From assembly GCA_937873425.1 (NCBI GenBank), contig CALMYE010000235.1, forward strand, positions 1 through 55,710: DNA of 55,710 nucleotides, in the 5' to 3' direction. The notes under the pieces are model-generated. The model searched no databases, was not told where the DNA came from, and saw only the letters and a list, made by a program, of their open reading frames with translations. This DNA comes from an uncultured Sphingopyxis sp. (lineage in GTDB: Bacteria; Pseudomonadota; Alphaproteobacteria; Sphingomonadales; Sphingomonadaceae). Each line of letters begins with the position of its first letter. The first letter of the stretch is position 1. Both the position numbers and the translations under genes were made by a program. Shown piece after piece: positions 26,973-53,197 of the stretch.

Positions 26973-26988
26973 AGCAATCATCGTGCCA
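26973..26988 (-). promoter_or_regulatory. sigma-54 promoter of slt-flhA-fliA
   Basis: Reading leftward TGGCACGATGATTGCT: GG (26987-26986), ten bases, GC (26975-26974). It matches the consensus TGGCACG-N4-TTGCW at every fixed position. Predicted transcription start about 26963, giving a leader of about 20 bases before the ATG at 26942. Confidence 0.85.
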
Positions 26989-27020
26989 TTTCAGGAAAAC
27001 GGCGGGTTAGGCAGGGCCGC

Positions 27021-27326
27021 TCAATAGCTTAGCGCGATCCCCCGCGACTGGGTTCCGCGGATATGATGGTTTCTGTCAATCCTCTGACGCGTCCAGTCCT
27101 TCAGGATGTTGACGCGGATCGCCGCGGCCTCGAGCTTGCGCAGCACGCGGTCGATCATCAGCCGCGCCTGCTCCTCGCGTCCGGGTGGCACCGGGCTGGC
27201 CTGGAACAGGATGACGGCGGTCGCCAGCGCTTCGGTCGCGGCGATGATCGCGCCGGCGTCCTGCCCGTCGAGCGCGGCGACCAGCGCGTCGAGCTGCGCC
27301 TGAACCTCGTCCATCGGTGCCGGCAT
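27021..27326 (-). CDS. flgN: FlgN-like export chaperone
   Basis: 101 residues from the ATG at 27326, which overlaps the flgM stop (ATGA); an ATG four codons later is possible. It is a small helical protein (DEVQAQLDALVAALD, ARLMIDRVLRKLEAAAIRVN). Direct similarity to FlgN is weak by eye; the call rests on size, predicted helical content and the invariant flgM-flgN order. FlgN would hold hook-filament junction proteins FlgK and FlgL for export. Confidence 0.65.
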   Translation of the reverse strand: MPAPMDEVQAQLDALVAALDGQDAGAIIAATEALATAVILFQASPVPPGREEQARLMIDRVLRKLEAAAIRVNILKDWTRQRIDRNHHIRGTQSRGIALSY

Positions 27327-27628
27327 CAATCGGCTCCACCGGCATAATGCTGCAGCATCGCCCGCGCCGTGGCGTCGGGCTGGAGTTCGTAGCGGCCCTC
27401 CGCAATGGCGCTGCGCAACGCCGCGACGCGCGCGCCATCGACGGGCGCGGGCTGGGCGGCAATGTCGGCGGCGATGCCGATCAGCCGCGCGACCGGCACG
27501 GGGGTGGTGGCGGCCTTCGCCTGCGCGGGCGTCGGCCCGGGTTCGGCGGTGGCGCCCGCGACACGACGGACGGCGCCGATGCGCACGACGTTGCCGACCT
27601 GCAATCCGATCTTGCCGTCTCCCGTCAT
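27326..27628 (-). CDS. flgM: anti-sigma-28 factor FlgM
   Basis: 100-residue antagonist of FliA. The C-terminal half carries the FlgM pattern VDGARVAALRSAIAEGRYEL and ARAMLQHY; the N-terminal half is low-complexity, as in exported, partly unfolded FlgM proteins. It is preceded by AAAGGAGG and by a sigma-28 promoter, giving the known feedback loop in which FliA activates its own inhibitor. It overlaps flgN by ATGA. Confidence 0.85.
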   Translation of the reverse strand: MTGDGKIGLQVGNVVRIGAVRRVAGATAEPGPTPAQAKAATTPVPVARLIGIAADIAAQPAPVDGARVAALRSAIAEGRYELQPDATARAMLQHYAGGAD

Positions 27629-27679
27629 GTGCGCCTCCTTTCCATGGCCGTCGGAAAATCGACGGGCGTTCGAAGGCCA

Positions 27680-27706
27680 TTAACGGACGCGGAAAGGATT
27701 GATTAA
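27680..27706 (-). promoter_or_regulatory. sigma-28 promoter of flgM
   Basis: Leftward TTAA (27706-27703), 15 bases, TCCGTTAA (27687-27680). It fits the TAAA-N15-GCCGATAA type and closely matches the other three sites in the window. Predicted leader of about 45 bases to the flgM ATG. Confidence 0.75.
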
Positions 27707-27827: not shown

Positions 27828-28337
27828 TCAGTCCGCCAGGCGCGCGCGCCCCGGACCGGTGACGATCGCGCTCAGCGTGCTTTTGGCGTCGCTGCCGCGC
27901 AGCGCGATCAGGTCGCCGACGCGGCCGTCCTGCGTCGCGGTGGCGGCATAGCTGATCGAAAAGCTGTTCGTGTCGATGGTGACGCGGACATTGTCGCCGC
28001 GGCGCACGACCGGCGCCGATGCCGCGGGCTTGGCGACAAGGCCGCCGCCGGCCGCCGCGTTGGCGGGTCCGGTCATCGGCACGCGCAGCCGCCAGCCGAG
28101 CGAGGGGCAGCGGACGGCGAGCGTCTGGCCGTCGATCGCGGTCACCGTCGCCTGCTCGGGGCAGCGCGCCAGTTTGATGCGGCGGTCGATCGGCGTCGCG
28201 GTGCGGCCCATCGCATTCGCCACCATCTGCGTCAGCACGTCGATCGTCTGCCAATCCTCGGTCGCCTGCTGCGCGGTGGCCGCGGCGGGGATGCCGACGG
28301 CGAGCGCGGCGAGGCCGGTCACAAGCTTGCGGGTCAT
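27828..28337 (-). CDS. flgA: flagellar P-ring chaperone FlgA
   Basis: 169-residue periplasmic protein needed to assemble the FlgI P-ring. The ATG at 28337 follows AAGGAGATGGGCC and opens a signal peptide (LVTGLAALAVGIPAAATAQ). The C-terminal SAF-type domain has VVRRGDNVRVTIDTNSFSISY and AALRGSDAKSTL-like turns typical of FlgA. The frame extends far upstream, but that part crosses the sigma-54 promoter and is not coding. It is divergent from flgB. Confidence 0.88.
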   Translation of the reverse strand: MTRKLVTGLAALAVGIPAAATAQQATEDWQTIDVLTQMVANAMGRTATPIDRRIKLARCPEQATVTAIDGQTLAVRCPSLGWRLRVPMTGPANAAAGGGLVAKPAASAPVVRRGDNVRVTIDTNSFSISYAATATQDGRVGDLIALRGSDAKSTLSAIVTGPGRARLAD

Positions 28338-28368: not shown

Positions 28369-28380
28369 TGCCAATCTGCA
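28369..28380. promoter_or_regulatory. possible regulator site TGCCAATCTGCA
   Basis: Differs by one missing G from the palindrome TGCCAATCTGGCA found twice before the sigma-54 activator gene. It overlaps the -12 element of the flgA promoter, a position where bound protein would repress. Only one copy is here, so the evidence is modest. Confidence 0.35.
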
Positions 28381-28392
28381 CGATGCGTGCCA
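28377..28392 (-). promoter_or_regulatory. sigma-54 promoter of flgA
   Basis: Leftward TGGCACGCATCGTGCA: GG (28391-28390), ten bases, GC (28379-28378). All of TGGCACG is present; the -12 box is GTGCA instead of TTGCA. The start point would be about 28367, leaving a leader of about 30 bases. Confidence 0.75.
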
Positions 28393-28479
28393 GTCGCGCT
28401 TTGCCGCGGGGTTCGGCCGCCTTGCCGCGGGGCCTGTCGAATTTTTGACCGCCGGGTTGCCGGCCTGCCGTGCGCGCCG

Positions 28480-28534
28480 TTTGGCATGCCGTCATACAAT
28501 TGAAAAACCTTCCGAAAATCATTTTGGCATGCCG
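28480..28534. repeat. direct repeat TTTGGCATGCCG, two copies
   Basis: Copies at 28480-28491 and 28523-28534, 43 bp apart (about four helical turns), each containing the palindrome GGCATGCC. The second is also the -24 half of the flgB sigma-54 promoter; the first lacks a -12 element and may be an activator or decoy sigma-54 site. Confidence 0.6.
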
Positions 28535-28541
28535 ATTGCAT
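28524..28541 (+). promoter_or_regulatory. sigma-54 promoter of the flgBCDEFGHIJKL operon
   Basis: TTGGCATGCCGATTGCAT: GG at 28526-28527, ten bases, GC at 28538-28539, with TTGCA intact. Predicted start about 28551, a 66-base leader before flgB. Transcription should run through flgL. Confidence 0.85.
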
Positions 28542-28616
28542 CATGCCTTGGTGTTTCCGCGCGCTCGCGCCGGCCCCGGCCGAAACGAAGCGGCGGCGAA
28601 GGAAGGAATGACAAGC

Positions 28617-28955
28617 ATGGCATCCGAAAAGCTCTTCGGCATCCACGCCACGGCGCTCCAGCTACGCAACCAGCGCATGATGATGCTCGCGTCGAACATC
28701 GCCAACGCCGCGACGCCCAATTACAAGGCGCGCGACATCGACTTCGCGAAAGCGCTCGATCTCGCGCAGCAGGGCGGCTCGCTCGACGGCGCCGTCGCCT
28801 ATCGCGTCCCGGTCCAGGCGTCGCTCGACGGCAACACGGTCGAGATGGCGACGGAGCAGACCGCCTTCGCCGAGAATGCGCTCGCCTATCGCTCGAGCCT
28901 CTCCTTCCTCACCGGCCGCATCAACACGCTGACGCGCGCGCTGAAGGGCGAATGA
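28617..28955 (+). CDS. flgB: flagellar proximal rod protein FlgB
   Basis: 112-residue rod protein, close to the family length. The N-terminal rod motif LRNQRMMMLASNIANAATPNYKARD spans residues 20-44, with the ANxxTPxYK pattern. The ATG at 28617 is about ten bases after GGAAGGA; an ATG at 28608 is too close to it. It is first in the rod-hook operon, and its stop overlaps flgC (ATGA). Confidence 0.93.
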   Translation: MASEKLFGIHATALQLRNQRMMMLASNIANAATPNYKARDIDFAKALDLAQQGGSLDGAVAYRVPVQASLDGNTVEMATEQTAFAENALAYRSSLSFLTGRINTLTRALKGE

Positions 28956-29362
28956 CGATGAACGGCAATCTTTCCCTCTTCGACATTTCGGGCCGTGCCA
29001 TGTCGGCGCAGCTCGTGCGGCTCAACACCACGGCGTCGAACCTCGCCAATGCCGGCACCGTGTCGGGCAGCGAAGCGGGCGCCTATCGCGCGATGAAGCC
29101 GGTGTTCCGCACGGTGATGGACCAGAGCGGCCGCGCGACGGTCGCGGTCGACCGCGTCACCGTGTCGCAGATGGCCCCGTCGAAGCGCCACGACCCGACC
29201 AACCCGCTCGCCGATGCGGAGGGCAATGTCTGGGAAGCCGCGGTCGATAGCGCCGCCGAGCTGGTCGAGATGGTCGAGACCGCGCGCCAGTATCAGAACA
29301 ATGTCCAGGTCCTGGAAACCGCCAAGGGCCTGATCAACGAAACGCTCAGGATGGGACAATAA
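28952..29362 (+). CDS. flgC: flagellar proximal rod protein FlgC
   Basis: 136-residue rod protein. The N-terminus has LVRLNTTASNLANAGTVSG and the C-terminus the axial motif VEMVETARQYQNNVQVLETA. The ATG at 28952 overlaps the flgB stop; an ATG two codons later is an alternative. Stacks with FlgB, FlgF and FlgG to form the rod. Confidence 0.94.
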   Translation: MTMNGNLSLFDISGRAMSAQLVRLNTTASNLANAGTVSGSEAGAYRAMKPVFRTVMDQSGRATVAVDRVTVSQMAPSKRHDPTNPLADAEGNVWEAAVDSAAELVEMVETARQYQNNVQVLETAKGLINETLRMGQ

Positions 29363-29363
29363 G

Positions 29364-29684
29364 ATGGCGACCGCACCCGTGAACGGCACCACCCTGCCGA
29401 TCGTGCCCAAGAACAGCGGCATGCAGCTCGGCCAGTCGGACTTCCTCCGCCTGATGACCGCGCAGCTGACGCAGCAGGACCCGTTCAACCCGGTCGATAA
29501 TCAGGCGATGGTCGCCCAGATGGCGCAATTCTCCAGCCTCGCCGGGATCAGCGAGACCAATGTGACGCTTCAGCAGATCGCCGAGCAGCTTCAGGCGCAG
29601 ACCGCCCTGCTCAAGGACATCAAGGCCGCCGCCGCCACCCCGGCGCCGGCGCCCGCCCCCGAAACCACCACCCAGGAAGGATAA
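29364..29684 (+). CDS. flgD: short hook-cap protein FlgD (N-terminal domain only)
   Basis: 106 residues against about 220 in E. coli. The conserved N-terminal part is complete: SDFLRLMTAQLTQQDPFNPVDNQ and MVAQMAQFSSLAGISE. The fibronectin/tudor-like domains that form the hook scaffold are absent; the protein ends in a Pro/Ala tail. It starts 1 base after the flgC stop and precedes flgE, as expected. The following sequence shows no frameshifted continuation. Confidence 0.88.
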   Translation: MATAPVNGTTLPIVPKNSGMQLGQSDFLRLMTAQLTQQDPFNPVDNQAMVAQMAQFSSLAGISETNVTLQQIAEQLQAQTALLKDIKAAAATPAPAPAPETTTQEG

Positions 29685-29688
29685 GTCC

Positions 29689-30516
29689 ATGTCGTTCTAC
29701 ACCTCGCTTTCGGGCCTCAAGGGCGCCCAGACCGACATGTCGGTCATCTCGAACAACATCGCCAATGCGAGCTCGACCGGCTTCAAGCGCAGCCGCGCGC
29801 AGTTCGGCGACCTCTTCGCCTCGTCGCCGACGCAATCGACGCGGATGATCGCGGGGCAGGGGCAGCGCCTCAACGGCGTGATGCAGCAGTTCACGCAGGG
29901 CACGCTCGAGGCGAGCGAGAAGACGCTCGACCTCGCCATCGCCGGCGAGGGCATGTTCGTCGTCAAGGGCGAGCCGCCGCGCGAGGCCGTCACCTACACC
30001 CGCAACGGTGCGTTCAGCGTCACCGCCGACCGCCAGGTCGTCGATACGACCGGCGCCAAGCTCCAGCTTCTCCCCGTCGATGCCGACGGCAACGTCACCG
30101 ACCGCACGCTCGGCGGCGCGTTCGACTTCGTGCTGCCCGCGGGCTCGCCGACCGATCCCGATGCGGCGCTGGTCAATGTCTCGGTCGGCCTCGACGGGCT
30201 CGTTACCGCGACTTTCGCCGACGGCAGCGACCAGGTGCTCGGCAAGGTGGCGATGGCGACCTTCCCCGCGATGGAGGGGCTGCGCCCCGTCGGCGACGCC
30301 CACTGGCAGTCCACCGGCGAAAGCGGCCCGCCGACCATCGATGCCGCGACCAACGGCCCGATGGGCGCGATCCGCTCGGGCGCGCTCGAACGCTCGAACG
30401 TCGACATCACCGAGGAACTGGTGATGCTGATCGCCGCGCAGCGCAATTTCCAGGCCAATGCCAAGGCGATCGAAGGCGCCTCGGCGCTGACGCAGACGAT
30501 CATCGGCCTGCGCTGA
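29689..30516 (+). CDS. flgE: flagellar hook protein FlgE, short form
   Basis: 275 residues, against about 400 in enteric FlgE. The termini are standard: YTSLSGLKGAQTDMSVISNN and NIANASSTGFKRSR at the start, ITEELVMLIAAQRNFQANAK and the ALTQTI end. The exposed middle domains are much reduced. The identity comes from the order flgD-flgE-flgF. The ATG at 29689 follows AGGAAGG at a good distance. Confidence 0.87.
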   Translation: MSFYTSLSGLKGAQTDMSVISNNIANASSTGFKRSRAQFGDLFASSPTQSTRMIAGQGQRLNGVMQQFTQGTLEASEKTLDLAIAGEGMFVVKGEPPREAVTYTRNGAFSVTADRQVVDTTGAKLQLLPVDADGNVTDRTLGGAFDFVLPAGSPTDPDAALVNVSVGLDGLVTATFADGSDQVLGKVAMATFPAMEGLRPVGDAHWQSTGESGPPTIDAATNGPMGAIRSGALERSNVDITEELVMLIAAQRNFQANAKAIEGASALTQTIIGLR

Positions 30517-30548
30517 TCCGCTGCTAGCCGCCTGCCGGGAGATTCCAC

Positions 30549-31292
30549 ATGGATCGTGTCATCTATACCAGCCTCACCGCGATGCGGGGCAGCATGGCCC
30601 GGCAGACGGCGATCGCCAACAATCTCGCCAATGCGCAGACGCCCGGCTTCCGCGCCGACATGGCCGAGGCGCAGGCGCTGTGGCTGCACGGCAGCGGGCA
30701 CGACGCCCGCGCCCTGTCGTCGGAGGAAGTGCTCGCCGCCGACATGCGCGCCGGCACCGTCACCGCGACGGGCCGCGACCTCGACGTCGCGATGCAGGGC
30801 GACGCGCTGCTCGTCGTCCAGGCGCCGAACGGCGACGAAGCCTATACCCGCCGCGGCGACCTGCAACTGGCGCCGAGCGGCCTCTTGACCACCGGCGACG
30901 GCCATCCGGTGCTGGGGACGCAGGGGCCGCTGACCGTTCCGCCCGCCGACGCGATCCGCATCGACGCCGACGGCCGGCTGTTCATCGTCCCGCCCGGCGG
31001 CGATCCCGAAAATCCGGTCGAGGTCGACCGGCTGCGCCTCGCGGCGCCGGCGGGGTCGGACATCGTCAAGGGCCTCGACAATCTGTTCCGCGTGCGCGGC
31101 GGCGGGATTCTCCCCGACGATCCGGAGGCGCGCCTGACCACCCGCTCGCTCGAAGGATCGAACGTCAGCGCGACCGCCGCGCTCGTCGACATGATCGAGG
31201 CGAGCCGGATGTGGGATTCGCAACTCAAGCTGATCGGCGACGCGCGCGACATGGATGCCGCGACCGCGAACCTGATGCAGCTGCCCCGTTAA
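30549..31292 (+). CDS. flgF: flagellar rod protein FlgF
   Basis: 247-residue proximal rod protein. N-terminal MARQTAIANNLANAQTPGFR, middle DVAMQGDALLVVQAPNGDEA, C-terminal LEGSNVSATAALVDMIEASR. It lies between flgE and flgG in the usual order and is of normal length. Confidence 0.93.
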   Translation: MDRVIYTSLTAMRGSMARQTAIANNLANAQTPGFRADMAEAQALWLHGSGHDARALSSEEVLAADMRAGTVTATGRDLDVAMQGDALLVVQAPNGDEAYTRRGDLQLAPSGLLTTGDGHPVLGTQGPLTVPPADAIRIDADGRLFIVPPGGDPENPVEVDRLRLAAPAGSDIVKGLDNLFRVRGGGILPDDPEARLTTRSLEGSNVSATAALVDMIEASRMWDSQLKLIGDARDMDAATANLMQLPR

Positions 31293-31304
31293 GGAGATGA
31301 TGAG

Positions 31305-32093
31305 ATGAGCTTCGGTGCCCTGCACGTCGCACGGACCGGTCTGGATGCCCAGGGCTTCCGGATGCAGGTGATCGCGAACAACCTCGCCAATGTGAACACC
31401 ACGGGCTTCAAGCGCGACCGCGCCAGCTTCGAAACGCTGGGCTATCAGATGATGACGCTCGCGGGCGCCTCTTCCTCGGCCGACAACCGCTATGCGACCG
31501 GGCTCAATCTCGGCACCGGCGTTTCGCTCGCCGGCACCGCGCGCATCGACACCCAGGGGACGCTCACCGCGACCGGCAACGGGCTCGACGTCGCGATCGA
31601 GGGCGCGGGCTATTTCCAGGTCCAGATGCCCGACGGCCGCATCGGCTATACCCGCGCCGGCAATTTCAGCCTGTCGTCCGAAGGCACGATCGTGACGCCC
31701 GACGGCAAGCCGCTGGAACCGCAGATCCAGATTCCGCAGGATGCGACCGCGCTGACCATCGGCGCCGACGGCACCGTCTCCGCGTCGATCGCGGGGCAGA
31801 CGGGAACGACCGAGCTCGGCCGGATCGAGATCGCGCGCTTCGCCAACGCCTCGGGATTGCAGGCGATCGGCAACAATATCCTGCTCGAAACCACCGCTTC
31901 GGGCGCGCCGCTGGTCGGCGGGCCGGGCGAGGATGGGCGCGGTGCGCTCCGTTCGGGCATGCTCGAAGGATCGAACGTCAATGTCGTCGAGGAACTCGTC
32001 GACATGATCGAGACGCAGCGCGCCTATGAGGTCAATTCCAAGATGATCCAGGCCACCGACGAGATGATCAAAAATGCGACCCAGACTCTCTAA
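31305..32093 (+). CDS. flgG: flagellar distal rod protein FlgG
   Basis: 262-residue distal rod protein, nearly the E. coli length (260). Seen are FRMQVIANNLANVNTTGFKR, GNGLDVAIEGAGYFQVQMPD, YTRAGNFSLSSEG and the C-terminal SNVNVVEELVDMIETQRAYE. The ribosome site AAGGAGATGATG precedes the ATG. Its 3' end overlaps flgH by 20 bases. Confidence 0.96.
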   Translation: MSFGALHVARTGLDAQGFRMQVIANNLANVNTTGFKRDRASFETLGYQMMTLAGASSSADNRYATGLNLGTGVSLAGTARIDTQGTLTATGNGLDVAIEGAGYFQVQMPDGRIGYTRAGNFSLSSEGTIVTPDGKPLEPQIQIPQDATALTIGADGTVSASIAGQTGTTELGRIEIARFANASGLQAIGNNILLETTASGAPLVGGPGEDGRGALRSGMLEGSNVNVVEELVDMIETQRAYEVNSKMIQATDEMIKNATQTL

Positions 32094-32748
32094 ATCGCTC
32101 ACCGGCGCCCTGTTCCTCGTCCTGCTCGCGCTGCCGACGGCGGCGGGGGCGAAGAAGGACAGGATCGCGCCCGAGGCCTTTTCGGTCACCCTGCCGGAAC
32201 CGCCGCCGGCGCCGCCGGCGAACGGCTCGATCTTTCAGGGCGCCTATGTGCCGCTCACCTCGGGCGCGCGCGCGGGCCAGGTCGGCGACCTCATCACCAT
32301 CCAGCTCGTCGAGCGCACCGTTGCCTCCAAAAGCAACAGCGCCGGCACGACGCGCGACGGCAGCTTCGGGCTGACCCCGCCGTCCACCGGTCCGCTCTCG
32401 CTCTTCGACCCCAGCGATATCGCCATGGGGGGCGGGTCGCAGTTCAAGGGCAAGGGCGAGGCGAGCCAGTCGAACCTGCTGTCGGGCGAGGTCAGCGTGA
32501 CCATCGCCGCCGTCTATCCCAACGGCACGATGCTGGTGAAGGGCGAGAAGCTCGTCACGCTCAACCGCGGCGACGAGCGCGTCCAGATCTCGGGCATCGT
32601 TCGCGCCGCGGACATCAGCCCCGACAACCGCGTGCTGTCGACCCGCGTCGCCAACGCCCACATCCGCTACGTCGGCAAGGGCGAGATCGCCCGCGCCAGC
32701 CAGCAGGGCTGGCTGCAACGCTTCTTCTCGATCATCAGCCCGTTCTGA
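32074..32748 (+). CDS. flgH: flagellar L-ring protein FlgH, without lipobox
   Basis: 224-residue outer-membrane ring protein. It keeps the family core: GSIFQGAYVPLTSGARAGQV, GDLITIQLVERTVASKSNSA and LVKGEKLVTLNRGDERVQIS. The signal peptide (LTGALFLVLLALPTAAGA, then KKD) has no cysteine, so the usual lipid attachment is not possible. No in-frame start gives a lipobox. It overlaps flgG by 20 bases, and the ATG at 32074 is the only sensible start. Confidence 0.92.
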   Translation: MRPRLSKSLTGALFLVLLALPTAAGAKKDRIAPEAFSVTLPEPPPAPPANGSIFQGAYVPLTSGARAGQVGDLITIQLVERTVASKSNSAGTTRDGSFGLTPPSTGPLSLFDPSDIAMGGGSQFKGKGEASQSNLLSGEVSVTIAAVYPNGTMLVKGEKLVTLNRGDERVQISGIVRAADISPDNRVLSTRVANAHIRYVGKGEIARASQQGWLQRFFSIISPF

Positions 32749-32762
32749 AAAGGGACCATCAC

Positions 32763-33872
32763 GTGCGCCAGCGTCACGCCATCTTCATCTTCCTTGCGCT
32801 CCTGATCGCCAGCATCGCCTTTTCGGGGCCGGCGTCGGCGCAGCGCGTCAAGGACATGGGTCAGTTCCAGGGTCTGCGCGCCAACCAGCTCACCGGCTAC
32901 GGCATCGTCGTCGGCCTTGCCGGCACGGGCGACGACAGCCTCGACTATTCGACGCTGGGCATGAAGGGAACGGTGTCGCGCTTCGGCCTGACGCTGCCGC
33001 CGGGGGTCAACCCGGCGCTCAAGAACGCCGCCGCCGTGATGATCACCGCCGAGCTGCCGCCCTTCGCCAAGCCCGGCCAGCGCCTCGATGTCACCGTCTC
33101 GGCGCTCGGCAAGGCCAAGAGCCTGCGCGGCGGCACGCTGGTGCTCGCGCCGCTCTATGGCGCGGACGGCCAGATCTACGCGATGGTGCAGGGCAATCTG
33201 GTCATCGGCGGCCTCGGCGTCGATGCCGCCGACGGATCGAAGCTGACGGTCAATGTACCGTCCAGCGGCCGCATCGCCGGCGGCGCGACGGTCGAGCGCG
33301 CGGTCGACACCGGCTTCGCGACCGGCGACTGGCTGACCTTCAACCTCCACCAGTTCGACGCGACCAATGCGAAGCGGGTCACCGACGCGATCAACGCCGC
33401 GATCCCGAACAGCGCCTCGATGATCGACGGCGCCAGCATCGCGATCCGCGCGGTCGGCAACGGCGACGACCGCATGCGGCTGATGTCGCAGATCGAGAAT
33501 CTCTCTGTCCAGCGCGCCGAGCCGCCCGCGAAGGTCATCGTCAACGCGCGCACCGGCACGGTGGTGATCAACGGCGCGGTGCGCGTCGGCACCGCCGCCG
33601 TGGCGCAGGGCAAGCTGACCGTGTCGATCAAGGAATCGCCGACGGTCGTCCAGCCCGCGCCGTTCAGCCGCGGCGAGACCGCGGTCGAACAGTCGAGCGA
33701 TATCTCGGTCGAACAGGAATATCGCCCCATGATGATGGTGCGGCCGACCGCTTCGCTGTCCGAGCTCGTCGATGCGATCAACCGCATGGGCGTGCCCCCC
33801 GGCGACCTCGTCGCCATCCTCGAGGCGCTGAGCCAGGCCGGCGCGCTCACAGCCGAACTGGTGATCATATGA
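32763..33872 (+). CDS. flgI: flagellar P-ring protein FlgI
   Basis: 369-residue periplasmic ring protein of normal length, GTG start at 32763 after AAAGGGACC. A signal peptide ends near residue 27 (FSGPASAQ). Conserved parts are RVKDMGQFQGLRANQLTGYG, VVGLAGTGDDS, NPALKNAAAVMITAELPPFA and the C-terminal LVDAINRMGVPPGDLVAILE. The stop overlaps flgJ (ATGA). Confidence 0.95.
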   Translation: MRQRHAIFIFLALLIASIAFSGPASAQRVKDMGQFQGLRANQLTGYGIVVGLAGTGDDSLDYSTLGMKGTVSRFGLTLPPGVNPALKNAAAVMITAELPPFAKPGQRLDVTVSALGKAKSLRGGTLVLAPLYGADGQIYAMVQGNLVIGGLGVDAADGSKLTVNVPSSGRIAGGATVERAVDTGFATGDWLTFNLHQFDATNAKRVTDAINAAIPNSASMIDGASIAIRAVGNGDDRMRLMSQIENLSVQRAEPPAKVIVNARTGTVVINGAVRVGTAAVAQGKLTVSIKESPTVVQPAPFSRGETAVEQSSDISVEQEYRPMMMVRPTASLSELVDAINRMGVPPGDLVAILEALSQAGALTAELVII

Positions 33873-35481: not shown

Positions 35482-35494
35482 AAGGAGTAGGGCG

Positions 35495-36331: not shown

Positions 36332-36358
36332 TCAATCTTTCGCCGCCGCTGCCGTTAA
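36332..36358 (+). promoter_or_regulatory. sigma-28 promoter of motAB
   Basis: TCAA (36332-36335), exactly 15 bases, GCCGTTAA (36351-36358). Predicted start about 36365, a 50-base leader before motA. It starts 7 bases after the flgL stop codon, separating motor genes from the rod-hook operon. Confidence 0.78.
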
Positions 36359-41392: not shown

Positions 41393-41398
41393 ATGCTG

Positions 41399-42561: not shown

Positions 42562-42564
42562 GGC

Positions 42565-43347: not shown

Positions 43348-43354
43348 CGGCGGC

Positions 43355-43624: not shown

Positions 43625-43628
43625 GTCG

Positions 43629-46529: not shown

Positions 46530-46543
46530 CTCTCAACTCCTCG

Positions 46544-47752
46544 TCAGGCGAAGCGACCGCGGCGATGGGCGGCGCGCTCTTCGTCACGGGTTTCGGAGCG
46601 CGTTTCCGCGCGGTCGGTTTCGATCAGGTGGGTGGCGTCCTCGCCCGGCATGCGGCCCTGGCCCTGCTGTGACTGGCGCCCGGCCTCGCCGGGCGTGTGG
46701 GTCACCTGCGCGTCGGCGACGCGGACGCCCTGCTGGCGCAGATCCTCGACCAGCCGCGGCTGCGCGGCGGCGACGATCGTCGCGGTCTTTTCATGCTGCG
46801 TGTCCATGGTCAGCGACACCCCGTCGTCGCCCGCCGTTATCGCGACGTCGAGCCGGCCGAGGTGGCGCGGCATCAGGCGGAAGCTGAGTTCGCCCGAGGC
46901 GGATTTGGTGGCGGCGATGTCCGACGCCAGCCGGTCGATCCAGCCGTCGTCGCTCGTCAGGTCGAGCACACGCTCGGCGACCACGGCGGGGCGCGCGGCC
47001 TCGGCGATCCCCGCCGTCTGCGCCGCGGGCTGGGTGAAGATCACGGTCATCGACGGCTCGGCGGCGGGTTTCGCGGCCTGCGGCTCGGCGACCGCGAACG
47101 CCATCGCGGGCAGCGGCTGCGCAGCCTCGCGCGGCTTCGGCGCCGCCATCGGCATCGCGGGTGCGTCGTCACGGTGCGCGGCGGGCTGCCGCGCGGCGTC
47201 CCTGGCGGGCTTGTCCGCGGCAGGCGCGGCGGCCGCCGGCGGCGCGGGCGCCCAGGCCAGCACCGGCGCGTCGTCGTCGGTTTCGCTTGCGCCCGCTTCG
47301 CCTTCCTCCTGCGCCTCACCCGGTTTCACCGCCGCCGGCGTCCTCGCAGGCTGCGCCGTGACGAAACGGCCGAGCGTTCCGGCGAGCCGGCTCGCGACCG
47401 CGACGGCCTCTTCGCCAGACGCTTCGGGTTCCGCCTTCGGCGGCGTCGGAGCGGCGGTTTTGCCGTCGCCGGTCTCGACCTGCGGTTCGGTGGCATCCGG
47501 CGATGCAGCAATGGGCTTCGCGGCGACCTGCTTCGATCCTTCCGGCACGCCCGCCTCCGGAGCGGCCAGCGAAAAGACCGGCGCATCGGCGGCGGCATCC
47601 GGTGCTGTCACCGGCGCGGCAGCATTCGCCTGCAAGGCGACGATCTGTTCGAACCCGCCCGCTTCGCCGCCGCCCTGCGGCAGCGCCGCGCCCGCCGCCG
47701 CGAGCGGCAGGGGCAGGGCGAAGGTCGCGGTCTGCGGCAGCGCGCCCATCAT
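46544..47752 (-). CDS. fliK: hook-length control protein FliK
   Basis: 402 residues. The long N-terminal part is Ala/Pro/Glu-rich and low in complexity; the C-terminal domain has ELSFRLMPRHLGRLDVAITA and LVEDLRQQGVRVADAQV, the FliK pattern. It measures hook length and triggers the FlhB switch. Its start overlaps fliJ (ATGA). Confidence 0.88.
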   Translation of the reverse strand: MMGALPQTATFALPLPLAAAGAALPQGGGEAGGFEQIVALQANAAAPVTAPDAAADAPVFSLAAPEAGVPEGSKQVAAKPIAASPDATEPQVETGDGKTAAPTPPKAEPEASGEEAVAVASRLAGTLGRFVTAQPARTPAAVKPGEAQEEGEAGASETDDDAPVLAWAPAPPAAAAPAADKPARDAARQPAAHRDDAPAMPMAAPKPREAAQPLPAMAFAVAEPQAAKPAAEPSMTVIFTQPAAQTAGIAEAARPAVVAERVLDLTSDDGWIDRLASDIAATKSASGELSFRLMPRHLGRLDVAITAGDDGVSLTMDTQHEKTATIVAAAQPRLVEDLRQQGVRVADAQVTHTPGEAGRQSQQGQGRMPGEDATHLIETDRAETRSETRDEERAAHRRGRFA

Positions 47753-48195
47753 GCCGCACCCCCGTCGATCAGGCGCAGCCGCATCCCGCCGCGCGCGCGG
47801 TGCGGGCGGTTGGTGTCGCTGCGGCGCTCCATTTCCTGCTCGGCCGACTTGCGGCTGCGTTCATAGAGGCGGACGGCGGATTCCTCCTTGACCATCGCGC
47901 TCTGCGCGAGCGCGCCCATCTGGTCGCGGCGGGCGCTGGCGCCCGCCATCGGCGCGGCGAGATTTTCCCGCGCCATGTCGAGCCGCGCGCCGAGTTCGCC
48001 GATGGTGTTGAGCGCCCGGCCCGCGACCGCACCCTTCGCCACCGCGAGGTCGGCGCGCAGCGCCTCGAGCCGTTTCGACAGCTCGACCAGGTTCGCCAGT
48101 TCGCCATTGGCCCGCGCAAGATTGGCCTCCGCCATCTGATGTTCGACGCTGCGAACGCGGATGATCCGTTTGCGGCGGGCGGTGGTCGCGGTCAT
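47749..48195 (-). CDS. fliJ: flagellar export protein FliJ
   Basis: 148 residues, mostly one long coiled coil (LARANGELANLVELSKRLEA; LYERSRKSAEQEMERRS), as in FliJ, the central stalk of the export ATPase. Low sequence conservation is normal; the identity rests on its place between fliI and fliK, to both of which it is coupled by 4-base overlaps. Confidence 0.83.
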   Translation of the reverse strand: MTATTARRKRIIRVRSVEHQMAEANLARANGELANLVELSKRLEALRADLAVAKGAVAGRALNTIGELGARLDMARENLAAPMAGASARRDQMGALAQSAMVKEESAVRLYERSRKSAEQEMERRSDTNRPHRARGGMRLRLIDGGAA

Positions 48196-49523
48196 GCACT
48201 ATATCCTTCAACAAGAGACTGGCGGGAGGTTTGGAAATCGACCTGAGCCTTGGCGCCCTGGGTCACGAAGGCGAGCTGGTCGGCGCGGCGCGCGATGGCC
48301 TCGTCGAGCACCGGATCGCCGCCGGCGACATAGGCGCCCATCAGCATCAGATCGCGATTCTCTTCATAGGCCGACCACAGCTGGCGAAAGCGCGCGGCGG
48401 CGGCGGCATGCTCGGCATCGACCGAATCGACCATCGTGCGCGACAGCGAGCGGGCGACGTCGATCGCCGGATAGACGCCCTGTTCGGCCAGGCTGCGCGA
48501 CAGGATGATATGCCCGTCGACGATCGCGCGGGCGCTGTCGACGACCGGGTCTTCGATGTCGCCGCCGTCGGCGAGCACGGTATAGAGCGCCGTGACCGAT
48601 CCGCCGGTCGCCTTGTCGATGCCCGCCCGTTCGCACAGCGAGGGGATCAGCGCGAAGACCGAGGGTGGATAGCCCTTCATCGTCGGCGGCTCGCCGAGCG
48701 TCAGCCCGATCTCGCGCTGCGCATGGGCGACGCGGGTCAGGCTGTCGATCAGCAGCAGCACTTTCTTGCCCTCGTCGCGGAACGCCTCGGCGATCGCGGT
48801 CGCGCGCATCGCGGCGCGCAGGCGCAGCAGGGGCGGGTGGTCGGCGGGAACCGCGACGACGACCGATTTCTTGCGCACGGCGGGGGGCAGCTTGGTCTCG
48901 ACGAAGTCGCTGACCTCGCGGCTGCGCTCGCCGATCAGGCCGACGACGATCACGTCGCATTCGGTCCCGGCGATCATCTGGCCCATCAGCACCGACTTGC
49001 CGACGCCCGATCCGGCGACGATCGCGACGCGCTGGCCCTCGCCGACGGTGAGCAGGCCGTTGATCGCGCGCACGCCCATGTTGAGCGCGCGGGTCACGCG
49101 GCCGCGGCGCAGCGGATTGACCTTGCGCCCGGCAAGCGGCCACAGGAACTGCGACTTGACCGGCGGGCGGCCGTCGAGCGGATTGCCCTGCGCGTCCATG
49201 ATCCGGCCGAGCAGCGCCTTGCCGACGGGAACCATCGACGAGGCGCCGTGCGGCTCGACCGGGGCGCCGGTGACCAGCGGCTTGTTCATGTCGAAGGGCA
49301 GGACCAGACTGCGGTGACCGCGAAAGCCGACGACCTCGCCATAGACATAGTCGTTGTCGGCCGATTTGATGCGGACATTGCTGCCCAGCGGCTGCGGGAA
49401 ACCCGACACTTCCAGCATGATGCCCTCGTGCGCGACCAGCGTGCCGATGCGGCGCGGGCTGGCCTTGGCGATATCGACGGGGGCGAGCAGTTGCTGCGCG
49501 GTCATGGCGAGGCGGCGGGTCAT
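48192..49523 (-). CDS. fliI: flagellar export ATPase FliI
   Basis: 443-residue F1-type ATPase. Walker A is GSGVGKSV, Walker B follows KVLLLIDSLTRVAHAQREIG, and EPPTMKGYPPSVFALIPSL is the family signature. An N-terminal start at 49523 overlaps fliH (ATGA). Energises export together with FliH and FliJ. Confidence 0.97.
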   Translation of the reverse strand: MTRRLAMTAQQLLAPVDIAKASPRRIGTLVAHEGIMLEVSGFPQPLGSNVRIKSADNDYVYGEVVGFRGHRSLVLPFDMNKPLVTGAPVEPHGASSMVPVGKALLGRIMDAQGNPLDGRPPVKSQFLWPLAGRKVNPLRRGRVTRALNMGVRAINGLLTVGEGQRVAIVAGSGVGKSVLMGQMIAGTECDVIVVGLIGERSREVSDFVETKLPPAVRKKSVVVAVPADHPPLLRLRAAMRATAIAEAFRDEGKKVLLLIDSLTRVAHAQREIGLTLGEPPTMKGYPPSVFALIPSLCERAGIDKATGGSVTALYTVLADGGDIEDPVVDSARAIVDGHIILSRSLAEQGVYPAIDVARSLSRTMVDSVDAEHAAAAARFRQLWSAYEENRDLMLMGAYVAGGDPVLDEAIARRADQLAFVTQGAKAQVDFQTSRQSLVEGYSA

Positions 49524-50116
49524 GCGGCGTCTTCCTCGCGGCCCAGCGCGGCGCGCAGTTCATTCAGGTAGACGGCGCGGCCATGCTCGATCCAGCCGGC
49601 GGAGGTCTCGACGCGCACGGTGCCGCGCACCATTGCCGGGTCGGCCTCGATGGGCAGGCGGATGTCGGCATCGACCAGCAGCGCGGCGTCCTGCGGATGG
49701 ACCCACAGGGTGCGCGCCTTGTCGGCCTCGGCGACCAGCGCGGCGGCGATGTCGGCCTGATCCTTCAGCCATTCGGCGTCGATCGGCGCGGCGACAACGA
49801 TCTGGCGGACGAGCCGTTCGACCGTCTCGGCGATCAGCTGCGCCAGTTCCTCGCTCGGCTCGTCCTGCAAAGCCTCGGTGCCCGCGACCAGCGCGAGCAA
49901 TTGCGCGCGCTCGACTGCGAAGCTCGCCTCGGCGAGGCGCTGGCCTTCGGCCAGGCCCTTTTCGAACGGGTCCTCGCCCGCTTCGGGCTCGGCCGGCGTT
50001 TGGGCGGCCATCGCGGCGCGTTCGCGCACGGCGGGGTCGAAGGACAGCGGGCGGAAACCGCCCTGCCGCGCGATCGCCATCGCCAGCGGCGTGGGGGCGA
50101 AGCTCTGGTCAGACAT
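49520..50116 (-). CDS. fliH: flagellar export regulator FliH
   Basis: 198 residues. The central part has a Gly/Ala- and acid-rich helix (GLAEGQRLAEASFAVERAQL); the C-terminal part has VERLVRQIVVAAPIDAEWLK and VHPQDAALL, as in FliH/SctL stator-like proteins. Position between fliG and fliI supports it. Confidence 0.87.
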   Translation of the reverse strand: MSDQSFAPTPLAMAIARQGGFRPLSFDPAVRERAAMAAQTPAEPEAGEDPFEKGLAEGQRLAEASFAVERAQLLALVAGTEALQDEPSEELAQLIAETVERLVRQIVVAAPIDAEWLKDQADIAAALVAEADKARTLWVHPQDAALLVDADIRLPIEADPAMVRGTVRVETSAGWIEHGRAVYLNELRAALGREEDAA

Positions 50117-51146
50117 AATCGTCGCCCGCGCCCGCGATCATGATCTCGCCGGCGGCGGCCATCTGGCGGACCACGGTCATGATGCTCTTCTGCGCATCCT
50201 CGACGTCGGCGCGCTTGACCATCGTCATCTCGTCCATCTCGTCGCGGATCGTTTCCGCGGCGCGCTTCGACATGGTGGACAGGCAGAGGTCCGCCATCTC
50301 GTCGTCGGCGCCCTTCAGCGCCAGCGCGAGCTGCGCCGCATCGACGCCGCGCAGGATGGTGCCGAGGCTGCGCATGTCGAGGTCGCGCAGATTCTCGAAG
50401 ATGAACATTTCCTCCTCGATCGTCTGGGCGAGTTGGCGGTCGGCCTTCTTCAGGTTCCGGATCGTCCGTTCCGACAGCGACTTGGGCATCTTCTTCATGA
50501 TCTTGGCGACATCGCTCGGGCCGCCGATCGGCTGCTTGGCGACGCGCTGGCCGCCGACATTGGCGGCCGCGAGCACCGATTCCAGATCCTCGATCGCGGC
50601 GGCGGGAACCGCGGTAAGCTGCGCGGCGCGCAGCACCAGATCGGCCTGCAGCGCCTCGTCGAGCGTCTCGATCGCACGCGCCGCGATATCGGGAACCAGC
50701 ACCGACAGGATCAGCGCGCCGACCTGCGGATGCTCGCTGGCGAGCAGGCCGCTGATCGCCTCGACGTCCATCCAGCGCAGCATCTCGAGCGAGGCGGCGC
50801 TGCGCTGCGGCGCGACGGCGGCCAGGATATTGTCGGCGCGGACATTGCCCACCGCCTGGCTCATCACCGTGCGGATGCGCGTGTCGGCGCCGATGGCGAG
50901 CGCGCTGACCGACCGGCTGCGATCGACGAAGCGGTCGAGCGCCTGTTCGATCTGCACCTCGGTCGCGTTGGCGGCGTCGAACATGCCCTTGGCGAGCTGG
51001 CGCACCTCGTCGGGGTCGAGATGCTTCAGGATCGTCGCCGCTTCGCTTTCGTCGAGCAGCATCAGCAGGATGGCGGCGGCGGCCGAGCCGTCGACCGGTG
51101 GCTTGGCGGGGGCGGTATCGATCGCGACGTCGAGTTCGTCAGCCAC
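50109..51146 (-). CDS. fliG: flagellar motor switch protein FliG
   Basis: 345 residues in three ARM-like domains. The EHPQ motif is in LLASEHPQVGALILSVL; the C-terminal torque domain has MFIFENLRDLDMRSLGTILR and MSKRAAETIRDEMDEM with the charged helix. Overlaps fliF and fliH by 8 bases each. Confidence 0.96.
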   Translation of the reverse strand: MADELDVAIDTAPAKPPVDGSAAAAILLMLLDESEAATILKHLDPDEVRQLAKGMFDAANATEVQIEQALDRFVDRSRSVSALAIGADTRIRTVMSQAVGNVRADNILAAVAPQRSAASLEMLRWMDVEAISGLLASEHPQVGALILSVLVPDIAARAIETLDEALQADLVLRAAQLTAVPAAAIEDLESVLAAANVGGQRVAKQPIGGPSDVAKIMKKMPKSLSERTIRNLKKADRQLAQTIEEEMFIFENLRDLDMRSLGTILRGVDAAQLALALKGADDEMADLCLSTMSKRAAETIRDEMDEMTMVKRADVEDAQKSIMTVVRQMAAAGEIMIAGAGDDYV

Positions 51147-52788
51147 GGGCGCCCTCCTGCATCAGCTGGCGCACGGCGAGCGCGGCGCGCCCCGAATCCT
51201 GGCGGACGAATTCGCGGACCAGATTGGCGCGCGCCTCATAGCTCGGCGCGGCCTCGATCATCTCCAGCGTGATCTCGCGGCCGCGCGGGCGGGCGAGGGC
51301 GGGACTGCCGTCGGCGGCGGCCAGCAGCGTCTCTTCGAGCGCCGCGTCGCGTTCGGCGCGCGCGGCGGCGCGGGCCTTGGCGCCCTTGATCAGCGGGCGG
51401 CCGATGAACAGGAAGGCGAGCAGCGCGACCAGCACGCCGCCGATCTGCTTGACCAGCGGCAGGAACCAGCCCTGTTCGTAGAAGGCGGGGGCCGCGCTTT
51501 CGATCTTGGCGAAGGGGCGCTGGCCGATGGCGACGCGGTCGCCGCGCGCCTCGTGGAAACCGATCGCGCCCTTCACCAGATTGTCGATCTTGGCGAGGTC
51601 GCCCTGGCTCAGCGCCTTGCTGCCCTGGTTGAGCGCGACTGCGACCGACACGCGCTTCAGCCGGCCCTGCGGCTGGTGGGTGACCGAAATCTCGCGGCCG
51701 ACCTCATAGGCGCGCGCGGCATTCTCGTTGCTGCTCGTCTCGGGCGCGGCGGCCGGGCCGGCGTCGGCGGCCGGCGTCGGGCTCAGCGTCGAGGCCGGCG
51801 GCGGCTGGTTCGACAGCGCGCCGGGAATGCCGACCGCGGGCGGCGTGCCCTGGCCGCTGACCGATCGCGTGACCTGTTCGCTGCGCAGCGCGCGGTCGTT
51901 CTCGGGGAAGCTCTCGCGCGTCGCCTGGCTTTCGGACATATCGACGTCGGCATGCACCTCGACGCTGTAGTTGCCGGCGCCGAGCATCGGGCCGAGCAGG
52001 CTGTCGAGCGCGCGGCGGAACCGGTCTTCGATCTGCGTCTGGAGCTGAAAGGCTTTCATGTCGCTGCTCGTCGCACTGTCGGACAGCAGCGCGCCGCGCT
52101 GGTCGATCACCGACACCTGTTCGGCGTTCATGCCCGGAACCGAGGAGGCGACGAGGAAGCGGATGGCCTGCACCTGCCCGTCGGACAGGCTGCGGCCGTT
52201 CTGCAGCGTCAGCATGACCGAAGCGGTCGCGGGCTTGTCCTCGCGGACGAACAGGCTGGGCTCGGCGGCGGCGAGATGGACGCGCGCGGCCTTGACCGCG
52301 TCGATCGCCTCGATGGTGCGCGCGAGGTCGGCCTCACGCGCGCCGCGCAGCGTTTCGCCCTCGATCGCGCGGCTCGCGCCCATCGGCAGCGCGCCGATCA
52401 TGTCGCTGCCGTCGGCGCCCGCCTTGGGCAGGCCCTGGCCGGCGAGCGCGATCCGCGCCTGGTGCAGCTTGTCGGCATCGACGGTCAGCGCGCCGGTGGC
52501 GGGATCGATCCTGTGGCCGATGCCCTGCGAGGAAAGCGCGTCGGCGACCGCGGCCTTGTCGGCGTCGGCGAGGCCGGAGAAGAGCTGCGCCTGCGGGGCG
52601 GAGGCGGTGACGAAATAGGCGAGCGCCGCGATGCCGATCGCCGCCGTGGTGGCGATGGCGGGCAGCGCGCGCTGGACGGCGGGCTGGCGCACGAACTGGT
52701 GCAGCGGATCGAAGCGTCCGCCGAAGCTGGGGACGGGAAGGTTGGAAACCGGTTCGGAGACCGGGGTCAGGACTTGCGTTTCGGCCAT
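51139..52788 (-). CDS. fliF: flagellar MS-ring protein FliF
   Basis: 549 residues. Membrane helices at about 42-62 and 448-468 flank the periplasmic ring-building motifs (LFSGLADADKAAVADALSSQ; ALAGQGLPKAGADG; ARVHLAAAEPSLFVREDKPA). The C-terminal tail binds FliG. Begins 3 bases after the fliE stop. Confidence 0.96.
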   Translation of the reverse strand: MAETQVLTPVSEPVSNLPVPSFGGRFDPLHQFVRQPAVQRALPAIATTAAIGIAALAYFVTASAPQAQLFSGLADADKAAVADALSSQGIGHRIDPATGALTVDADKLHQARIALAGQGLPKAGADGSDMIGALPMGASRAIEGETLRGAREADLARTIEAIDAVKAARVHLAAAEPSLFVREDKPATASVMLTLQNGRSLSDGQVQAIRFLVASSVPGMNAEQVSVIDQRGALLSDSATSSDMKAFQLQTQIEDRFRRALDSLLGPMLGAGNYSVEVHADVDMSESQATRESFPENDRALRSEQVTRSVSGQGTPPAVGIPGALSNQPPPASTLSPTPAADAGPAAAPETSSNENAARAYEVGREISVTHQPQGRLKRVSVAVALNQGSKALSQGDLAKIDNLVKGAIGFHEARGDRVAIGQRPFAKIESAAPAFYEQGWFLPLVKQIGGVLVALLAFLFIGRPLIKGAKARAAARAERDAALEETLLAAADGSPALARPRGREITLEMIEAAPSYEARANLVREFVRQDSGRAALAVRQLMQEGARG

Positions 52789-52791
52789 GGG

Positions 52792-53133
52792 TTACACCGG
52801 CATGTTCATGATGTCGCGATAGGCGGACAGCAGCTTGTTGCGGACCTGCAACGTGGTTTCGAAGCCGAGCGAGGCTTTCTGCCGCTCGATCATCACGCTG
52901 ACGATGTCGTGCGTGTCGCCGCGTTCATAGGCTTCGCTGATCGCGCTGGCCTTCGCCTGCTGGGCGTTGACCTGTTGCAGCGCGTTCGAGATCGCCGATC
53001 CGAAATCGGCGGCGCCCGTCGGGTCGGCGGGACCGGCGCCGCCGCCGCGGCCCGCGGCGCGTTGCAGCGCCTCGTTCTGGTTGAGGATCGAACTGCGCAT
53101 CTGCAGCAGCCGGCTCTGGTCGATCGTGCTCAT
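52792..53133 (-). CDS. fliE: flagellar MS-ring/rod adaptor FliE
   Basis: 113 residues from the ATG at 53133; an ATG three codons upstream is possible. Frames further up run through the sigma-54 promoter and cannot be translated from this mRNA. The C-terminal half has the FliE pattern DTHDIVSVMIERQKASLGFE and TTLQVRNKLLSAYRDIMNMP. First gene of the 12-kb operon down to flhB. Confidence 0.93.
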   Translation of the reverse strand: MSTIDQSRLLQMRSSILNQNEALQRAAGRGGGAGPADPTGAADFGSAISNALQQVNAQQAKASAISEAYERGDTHDIVSVMIERQKASLGFETTLQVRNKLLSAYRDIMNMPV

Positions 53134-53180
53134 GCTTCCCATCCGTCCTGTGGCGGCATCGCGCCGCACGCAGACAGTGA

Positions 53181-53197
53181 TGCAAAGCACGTGCCAA
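53181..53197 (-). promoter_or_regulatory. sigma-54 promoter of the fliE-flhB operon
   Basis: Leftward TTGGCACGTGCTTTGCA: GG (53195-53194), ten bases, GC (53183-53182); it matches the full consensus. Predicted start near 53171, leader about 38 bases. Confidence 0.88.

Follow-up and report, generated by a model that had tools for sequence, protein, structure and literature searches.

A flagellar gene cluster from an uncultured Sphingopyxis sp., contained in a stretch of 55,710 nucleotides (the window), very probably carries a three-step transcription cascade leading from an activator to sigma-54 units and on to FliA units. From the observed sites and their conservation we infer binding, start points, operon lengths, and the following order of events: (i) a FleQ-like AAA+ activator (38308) would be made; (ii) it would bind GTC-N8-GAC boxes ~55 to 100 bases upstream of -24/-12 sites and open sigma-54 promoters at slt-flhA-fliA, flgA, flgB to flgL, and fliE to flhB, giving rod, rings, hook, switch, export gate, and FliA; and (iii) with the hook-basal body complete and FlgM exported, as in the known FliA/FlgM pair, FliA would open fliC, fliD, flgM-flgN, and motA-motB. 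This type of cascade is already known, and the one here is an alphaproteobacterial variant. The genes concerned are listed below; the names flhA, flgC-flgL, motA-motB, fliD, and those of the fliE-flhB line except fliE are ones we take to be correct from the translations.

23253..23999, minus strand: fliA (sigma-28), NCBIfam FliA_WhiG 207.5 bits against a cut-off of 189.6; the narrower FliA model gives 196.9, just below its 201
23989..26118, minus strand: flhA, export gate, presumed from its translation
26115..26942, minus strand: slt, lytic transglycosylase-like, Pfam SLT
27021..27329, minus strand: flgN-like gene, from its position after flgM, with no family match
27326..27628, minus strand: flgM (anti-sigma-28), Pfam FlgM 34.9 bits against a cut-off of 25; NCBIfam gives 39.2, just below 40.75
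27828..28337, minus strand: flgA, Pfam ChapFlgA
28608..36325, plus strand: flgBCDEFGHIJKL line, from translations; flgB is TIGR01396
36415..38126, plus strand: motA-motB, presumed from translation
38308..39372, plus strand: FleQ-like sigma-54 activator without a receiver domain
40016..41392, minus strand: fliD, presumed from its translation
41422..53133, minus strand: fliE to flhB line, from translations; fliE is TIGR00205
53376..54188, plus strand: fliC, flagellin, Pfam Flagellin_N and Flagellin_C

The early units are preceded by four -24/-12 sites, ranked here among the 1354 GG-N10-GC words of the window by a score weighted by hand after the known consensus.

26973..26989, minus strand: sigma-54 site of slt-flhA-fliA, ATGGCACGATGATTGCT, rank 2/1354
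28377..28393, minus strand: sigma-54 site of flgA, CTGGCACGCATCGTGCA, rank 4/1354
28524..28540, plus strand: sigma-54 site of the flgB line, TTGGCATGCCGATTGCA, rank 3/1354
53181..53197, minus strand: sigma-54 site of the fliE line, TTGGCACGTGCTTTGCA, rank 1/1354

GG-N10-GC with TGGCA and TTGC or, at flgA, a variant of it, is found upstream of and facing the gene at all four units. The initial annotation had called these four exact sigma-54 promoters; the sites are real, holding ranks 1 to 4 and being conserved, but "exact" is slightly too strong because flgA reads GTGC in place of TTGC at -12 and flgB reads CAT in place of CAC. The listed slt reading frame starts at 26981, within the promoter, and we adopted 26942 as its start. 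In 300 simulated windows matched to the real one in dinucleotide make-up, words at least as good as the weakest of the four occurred at a mean of 0.12 per window (maximum 3), and none of the 300 held four as good. Weaker GG-N10-GC words (score 13 to 16.5) are present at chance level. When one mismatch is allowed, the looser TGGC-N7-TTGC matches the window 86 times where 59 matches are expected, and none of 100 shuffles has as many as 86. Across the 4.34-Mb draft genome, the bare pattern TGGCAYRNNNNNTGCW has 16 matches against 15 for a reversed control; four of the 16 are the slt, flgA, flgB, and fliE sites, all inside 26 kb. We reject a chance origin of the four sites on the grounds of rank, simulation, and conservation.

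Conservation was counted in the best 80 of 527 relatives and, for fliE, in same-genus loci, using only genes whose start was placeable (match beginning no more than 25 residues from the query start) and which had more than 50 to 60 bases upstream; related species among these loci are non-independent events. Among the 80 relatives the site is present at 74/74 flgB, 50/55 slt, and 37/42 flgA orthologue loci, leaving five slt and five flgA loci in which it is absent; one of the former, L099, also has no site before flhA. A site precedes flhA in 11 of 55 regions, and in 10 of these 11 slt is absent or lies elsewhere in the locus. The fliE site is found at all 30 same-genus loci and at 0/1 in the wider scan, where L119 supplies the single fliE row. 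As negative controls in the same best 80 of 527 relatives, sites are found upstream of the activator gene in 0/34 loci, motA in 1/73 (L061), flgK in 0/80, flgM in 0/26, fliD in 0/23, and "fliC" in 0/28, the last rows being mostly flgL because most loci stop before fliC. Within their upstream regions the -24/-12 words belong to the best-conserved stretches, and they are kept across many genera.

The initial annotation had also placed a sigma-54 activator at 38308, and this is borne out: the protein has a full AAA+ sigma-54 domain and a Fis-type HTH. Among solved structures it comes closest to P. aeruginosa FleQ, with a match of 300 bits that extends through the HTH, and its nearest NCBIfam model is NtrC (335.7 bits, below the cut-off of 558.6). 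The N-terminal receiver-like domain is absent, the AAA+ match beginning at residue 17. FleQ contacts c-di-GMP through R138, R144, R151, R185, E330, E332, and R334, according to the available text of PMC10723142. Placing these residues by hand on the structure-match alignment (numbering shift 2; R138 falls outside and E332 is unplaceable), we found one of five placeable contacts kept (R185 to R), the others being changed (R144 to N, R151 to P, E330 to H, R334 to K).

Candidate binding sites for this activator lie upstream of the sigma-54 sites.

27075..27088, minus strand: FleQ-type box GTCAGAGGATTGAC, within flgN and ~99 bases upstream of the slt sigma-54 site
28436..28449, plus strand: FleQ-type box GTCGAATTTTTGAC, common to flgA and flgB
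53260..53273, minus strand: FleQ-type box GTCAAAAAAACGCC (one mismatch), 76 bases upstream of the fliE sigma-54 site

Published Pseudomonas FleQ boxes take the forms GTCaNTAAAtTGAC and GTCAaAAAAtTGAC in the portion of PMC6120874 available, and PMC10723142 likewise gives inverted repeats GTCAAT/ATTGAC. GTC-N8-GAC is this published form, and we predict that the boxes here serve the activator. The loci examined for them had no less than 150 bases upstream and, except at fliE, where no score threshold was set, a sigma-54 site scoring at least 19. Our Sphingopyxis group comprises the same-genus loci plus L048-L078, of which some carry only the title Sphingomonadales or Proteobacteria; the more distant L081 and L091, titled Sphingopyxis, were tallied as lying outside the group, although L091 was among the input sequences for the flgA-flgB and slt alignments. 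In this group the exact box occurs in 25/25 slt, 27/27 flgB, and 24/24 flgA regions, and no other spacing is present in all of them; at slt, its conservation is partly that of flgN, and other one-mismatch spacings are equally widespread there. At fliE, all 30 loci have the box with one mismatch; by our arithmetic, chance alone would place such a box roughly every 200 bases. Its fixed position, -76 in 29 of 30 loci and -75 in one, the best of all spacings, is an argument for its significance as a predicted box despite the mismatch. Outside the group, among the best 80 of 527 relatives, the exact box is found in 11/25 slt, 10/47 flgB, and 2/13 flgA regions. Genome-wide it precedes three of the 16 strict sigma-54 words, all three flagellar. 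GTCA-N6-TGAC followed by TGGCAC has one other match in the genome, a search that did not return the slt pair although it is present in the window, and to which we attach no weight. At flgB, the box accompanies an activator of at least 50% identity in 31/32 loci, a weaker activator in 0/3, and stretches with no activator seen in 6/39 (three of the six ending before the activator position); at slt, 12 of the 23 loci in which no activator was seen have the box too, three of the 12 ending before that position.

Predicted FliA-type promoters of late genes, and the putative control of the activator gene, are additions to the initial annotation.

27680..27706, minus strand: FliA-type promoter of flgM-flgN, TTAA-N15-TCCGTTAA, in 26/26 loci
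36332..36358, plus strand: FliA-type promoter of motA, TCAA-N15-GCCGTTAA, its T.AA form in 27/28 loci
41399..41425, minus strand: FliA-type promoter of fliD, in 21/21 loci
53283..53309, plus strand: FliA-type promoter of fliC, TTAA-N16-YCGTTA in 29/29 loci

The exact spacing is kept at fliC (29/29), flgM (26/26), and fliD (21/21), and no other spacing from 8 to 24 is. The strict pattern has four genome matches, three of them in this cluster, against one for the control; at motA the strict TTAA form is found in 0/28 loci, and a relaxed -35 is needed. An initial pattern matched flgM in 27/29, fliD in 21/23, and motA in 1/41 loci, and flgK, flgN, and flhB in 0/44, 0/31, and 0/23. At fliC, where the last base varies, it matched in only 2/29 (a further locus has no fliC), and it was relaxed afterwards.

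Upstream of the activator gene lie three further elements.

38127..38139, plus strand: palindrome TGCCAATCTGGCA, first copy
38180..38192, plus strand: palindrome TGCCAATCTGGCA, second copy
38229..38245, plus strand: CtrA-like box TTAGGCTTTTGTTTACC

The CtrA-like box, TA[AG]-N7-TTTAC, is found with its spacing kept in 36 of 37 close sequences. It reads TTAG-N7-TTTA (then CC), two letters from the full site TTAA-N7-TTAA given in the accessible part of PMC6180460. The pattern is not enriched genome-wide (7 matches against 17 for the control). A ctrA gene gave no match in this draft genome, though 56 of 60 congeneric genomes have one. TGCCANNNTGGCA occurs at five places in the genome against one for the control, two of them before the activator gene, and no clear common theme links the remaining three. 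The region upstream of the activator gene suggests control by CtrA and one further protein. In a tentative joint reading, to which we give slightly less than an even chance, CtrA would turn on a FleQ-type activator lacking a receiver domain and c-di-GMP pocket, and a second regulator would act at the paired CCA-N3-TGG palindromes; a Pseudomonas-like cascade would so have been cut from the second messenger and tied to the alphaproteobacterial cell cycle. The cluster is a clear test case for such a joining of CtrA to a FleQ-type cascade. No terminator-like word was found between motA and the activator gene, and read-through from the motA FliA-type promoter may therefore feed back on the activator.

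The initial annotation had proposed that the units for rod, hook, export gate, and FliA depend on sigma-54. This is supported by their conservation as set against the negative controls, a single rpoN match in the draft genome, the AAA+ domain of the 38308 protein, and the FleQ-type boxes. With the FliA-type promoters added, the sequence gives good support to the predicted scheme, in which a FleQ-like activator and sigma-54 would drive these units and FliA/FlgM would then drive filament, cap, and motor. It is very unlikely that the sites are real but served by another, FlbD-like or NtrC-like activator, the 38308 protein having some other role. The genome holds 12 sigma-54 activator domain matches, eight of them strong, and other sphingomonads among the best 80 of 527 relatives show the same -24/-12 sites with no 38308-type activator seen in the stretch. 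Yet the 38308 protein scores 281.7 bits against the NCBIfam FlbD cut-off of 750, its nearest solved structure is FleQ, FleQ-type boxes stand at these promoters, and at flgB the box tracks the activator gene. Further strict sigma-54 sites precede what we read as glnK-amtB, pspA, and rtcB, which have known activators of their own. That CtrA controls the early genes directly, as in Caulobacter, with the -24/-12 words mattering little, is the least probable reading: although work on Sphingomonas melonis, cited in the available text of PMC7713065, reportedly has CtrA as the master regulator of flagella, those words are among the most conserved upstream stretches and are shared by many genera, and the conserved CtrA-like box we found precedes the activator gene.

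Under the preferred cascade, fliA is predicted to be made only after sigma-54 activation, as initially proposed. We consider it unlikely, if less so than the preceding readings, that fliA is also expressed from a second promoter, making its synthesis independent of sigma-54 and its timing a matter of FlgM alone. P. aeruginosa fliA is constitutive in the account available in PMC3930126, and one sigma-70-like word lies within flhA at 26003-25976; however, such a word is at chance level (one found against 1.0 expected in the scanned stretch), fliA, which lies downstream of the slt sigma-54 site, has an 11-base overlap with flhA, and the slt-flhA-fliA order is kept in all 25 Sphingopyxis-group loci holding all three genes.

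The proposed cascade resembles that of Pseudomonas (FleQ/sigma-54/FliA) in its FleQ-like AAA+ and HTH domains, the published box form, and late genes under FliA/FlgM, but its activator has no receiver domain and most tested c-di-GMP contacts are changed, fliA lies behind a sigma-54 site, and the host is an alphaproteobacterium. In Rhodobacter sphaeroides fla1, early genes are under RpoN1 with FleQ/FleT and late genes under FliA (PMC6180460, in part); this alphaproteobacterial scheme is alike by its description and differs from the Sphingopyxis cluster, which has one activator gene. Vibrio FlrA is likewise a master sigma-54 activator with fliA among the early genes (PMC3930126, in part), whereas in Sphingopyxis the rod and hook genes carry the same site type as fliE and flhA. 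Caulobacter (CtrA/FlbD/FliX) may share a CtrA input at the top, but has no FliA and RpoN-dependent flagellins in the same partial source, where Sphingopyxis has FliA, FlgM, and FliA-type promoters.

Eight promoters and three activator boxes, all of them predicted, form a compact set, common to the Sphingopyxis relatives examined and open to testing in a laboratory strain such as S. granuli TFA. An open-access literature search, S. granuli papers included, found no promoter map of this kind in the text available. The accessible S. granuli literature describes 39 flagellar genes, a putative sigma-54 activator, fliA, and flgM. RNA data for S. granuli TFA, from partially available text, show flagellar genes, putative fleQ, and ctrA down in anoxia and up in a stress-response mutant, in agreement with the predicted cascade.

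Sphingopyxis loci are the nearest named relatives of the window, in which the flagellar genes extend from fliA (23253) to fliC (54188). We scored every GG-N10-GC word on both strands, against the sigma-54 consensus with weights set by hand, and the four sigma-54 sites proposed in the initial annotation were borne out: they rank 1 to 4 among the 1354 such words in the window, each upstream of the gene it faces. In 300 simulated windows of the same dinucleotide make-up, an average of 0.12 words per window equalled or exceeded the score of the weakest of these sites, and no simulated window contained four; lower-scoring words occur in the window at chance level. As a bare pattern across the whole genome the strict motif is not selective (16 matches vs 15 for the reversed control). 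The sites, their candidate activator boxes and a palindrome discussed below are as follows, with distances to start codons counted by hand.

26989-26973 (-), slt sigma-54 site, GC element 31 bases from start codon 26942
28393-28377 (-), flgA sigma-54 site, GC element 40 bases from start codon 28337
28524-28540 (+), flgB sigma-54 site, GC element 68 bases from start codon 28608
53197-53181 (-), fliE sigma-54 site, GC element 48 bases from start codon 53133
99 bases upstream of the slt site, inside flgN, GTC-N8-GAC box
common to the flgA and flgB sites, single copy of the GTC-N8-GAC box
76 bases upstream of the fliE site, one-mismatch GTC-N8-GAC box
38127-38192, upstream of the activator gene (38308..39372, +), palindrome TGCCAATCTGGCA, two copies 53 bases apart

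Strict sites elsewhere in the genome (loci L008, L014 and L016) precede genes reading as pspA, glnK-amtB and rtcB, as expected for sigma-54. At C72:27575-27643 of the same genome (middle of locus L004), a sigma-54-like word with a CtrA-like box beginning 53 bases upstream precedes a small, membrane-protein-like ORF.

Conservation was assessed in 80 named sphingomonad loci around flgI (the best 80 of 527), in which tblastn placed the gene starts and a site was counted if it scored at least 19 and lay no more than 350 bases upstream of the gene. Among usable loci of this set, a site precedes flgB in 74/74, slt in 50/55 and flgA in 37/42; within the Sphingopyxis group (L048-L078) the counts are complete (27/27, 25/25 and 24/24, respectively). 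The same test gave 0/26 for flgM, 0/34 for the activator gene, 0/80 for flgK, 0/23 for fliD, 1/73 for motA and 0/28 for rows labelled fliC, which are mostly the related flgL. A site precedes flhA in 11/55 loci; in ten of these slt is absent or lies elsewhere in the locus, so the site occupies the position that the slt site has in the window. Among the five loci lacking a site at slt, three carry one upstream of flhA, a fourth has an flhA whose start was not placed, and L099 lacks a site at either gene. All 30 same-genus loci, the window's own included, carry a site upstream of fliE; the sole fliE row of the 80-locus test (L119, Novosphingobium) does not.

The draft genome holds one match to rpoN and 12 to the sigma-54 activator domain, eight of them strong. 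The protein encoded at 38308 has its AAA+ domain (residues 17-183) almost at the start, followed by a lid and a Fis-type HTH. Its nearest solved structure is P. aeruginosa FleQ (8p53 chain C; 300 bits, aligned through the end of the HTH), and among the 25 listed of 28 NCBIfam models it passes no cut-off, scoring highest against NtrC (335.7 vs a cut-off of 558.6). Seven FleQ residues are named as c-di-GMP contacts in passages of PMC10723142; five can be placed on the alignment. Since a receiver domain is absent and only one of the five placed contacts (R185) is retained, the protein is, judged by sequence, FleQ-like rather than FleQ. Among the matches listed, 55 of 59 other same-genus genomes encode a protein of 82 to 90% identity, the remainder giving one match of 76% over part of the query and three weaker ones, and identity reaches at most 52% in 39 genomes of the order's other families. 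A plain text search of one strand, which may count some species twice and include some other activators, found the sigma-54-contact loop as GSFTGA in 42/43 matches of the close loci L018-L078 and as GAFTGA in 8/8 of the more distant L079-L091.

GTC-N8-GAC is the published form of the FleQ box in the relevant passages of PMC10723142 and PMC6120874, the latter describing the consensus as unreliable genome-wide in P. fluorescens. For each sigma-54 site, GTC-Nk-GAC was tallied over the preceding 200 bases at every spacing from k = 0 to k = 16. In the Sphingopyxis group k = 8 is found at slt in 25/25, flgB in 27/27 and flgA in 24/24 loci, with runner-up spacings of k = 12 (16/25), k = 11 (5/27) and k = 11 (7/24), respectively; beyond the group the k = 8 counts are 11/25, 10/47 and 2/13. 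The exact box is absent upstream of the fliE site (0/30), and the one-mismatch form lies at -76 in 29/30 loci and at -75 in the other. When one mismatch is allowed, the most fliE loci with a common position number 29 at k = 8 and 17 at the next spacing. At slt, k = 4, 12 and 13 are then common to 24, 24 and 25 of 25 loci; the slt box taken alone therefore proves little, other spacings being equally widespread in this flgN coding stretch. By its distribution, the flgB box goes with the activator gene: it is present in 31/32 loci whose activator has at least 50% identity, in 6/39 with no activator seen (three of the six end before the activator's place) and in 0/3 with a weak match. The apparent link is weaker at slt (24/24, 12/23 with three cut off, and 0/3). 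Among the genome's 16 strict sigma-54 words, only the three at slt, flgA and flgB are preceded by an exact box within 200 bases.

The known sigma-28 form is TAAA-N15-GCCGATAA. The pattern TTAA-N16-YCGTTAA resembles it; the draft genome contains four matches vs one for the control, and three of the four lie in the cluster, upstream of flgM, fliD and fliC. With the last base free and the spacing exact, it precedes fliC in 29/29, flgM in 26/26 and fliD in 21/21 loci of the Sphingopyxis group; these genes have none at other spacings from 8 to 24, and flgK, flgN, flhB, fliE and motA have none at any spacing in that range. Relaxation to TNAA adds motA (27/28, at that spacing only) and leaves exactly four such words in the window, all preceding late genes. 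FliA scores above the FliA/WhiG cut-off and slightly below that of a narrower FliA model; FlgM clears the Pfam threshold and narrowly misses the NCBIfam one. A hairpin-like word between flgA and flgM (27772-27759; 11 such words found vs 9.0 expected) would fit an flgM with its own promoter.

At 41392-41425 the FliA-type promoter of fliD ends six bases before the start codon, vs 21 in locus L049, so the message in the window may be nearly leaderless. The sole strict FliA-type word outside the cluster (L173 886-912, C151 of the same genome) precedes a gene for a small secreted-looking protein, at roughly 200 bases from that gene's likely start. Apart from the related flgL, fliC (53376-54188) is the single flagellin gene found in the draft; S. 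granuli TFA is described with fliC and fliC2.

We infer every functional step of the cascade from these sequence patterns, which support well the predicted sigma-54 control of the early flagellar operons. The proposed working order is that of the FleQ/FlrA, sigma-54, FliA cascades of gammaproteobacteria, and the cascade would be of the same working type as R. sphaeroides fla1. Unlike both, the activator here has no receiver domain and there is a possible CtrA input.

Roughly 180 bases upstream of the activator gene are well conserved. Two CCA-N3-TGG palindromes occur in 33/37 distinct Sphingopyxis-group sequences, separated in most cases by 52 or 53 bases, and TA[AG]-N7-TTTAC in 36/37 (with a spacing of 8 in one sequence and 12 in another) and in 7/9 more distant sequences. 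The TA[AG]-N7-TTTAC word resembles the CtrA site TTAA-N7-TTAA, as given in PMC6180460. Against a CtrA reading, the CtrA-like pattern is not enriched genome-wide (7 vs 17 in the control). No ctrA was found in the draft, which may reflect a gap, as the draft is 92% complete and ctrA is present in 56 of the 60 genus genomes searched, the window's own being among the four without. In S. granuli TFA, passages of PMC6472365, PMC7713065 and PMC7083833 describe co-varying expression of a putative fleQ, flagellar genes and ctrA, a correlation only; PMC7713065 attributes its own case to no growth. A MarR-type regulator gene (22707-23204), found in 22/25 Sphingopyxis-group loci with fliA, adjoins fliA, and its product is a possible owner of the activator-gene palindrome. 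Near the cluster, a small LuxR-type HTH protein (21322-21822) carries a hydrophobic stretch at its C-terminus.
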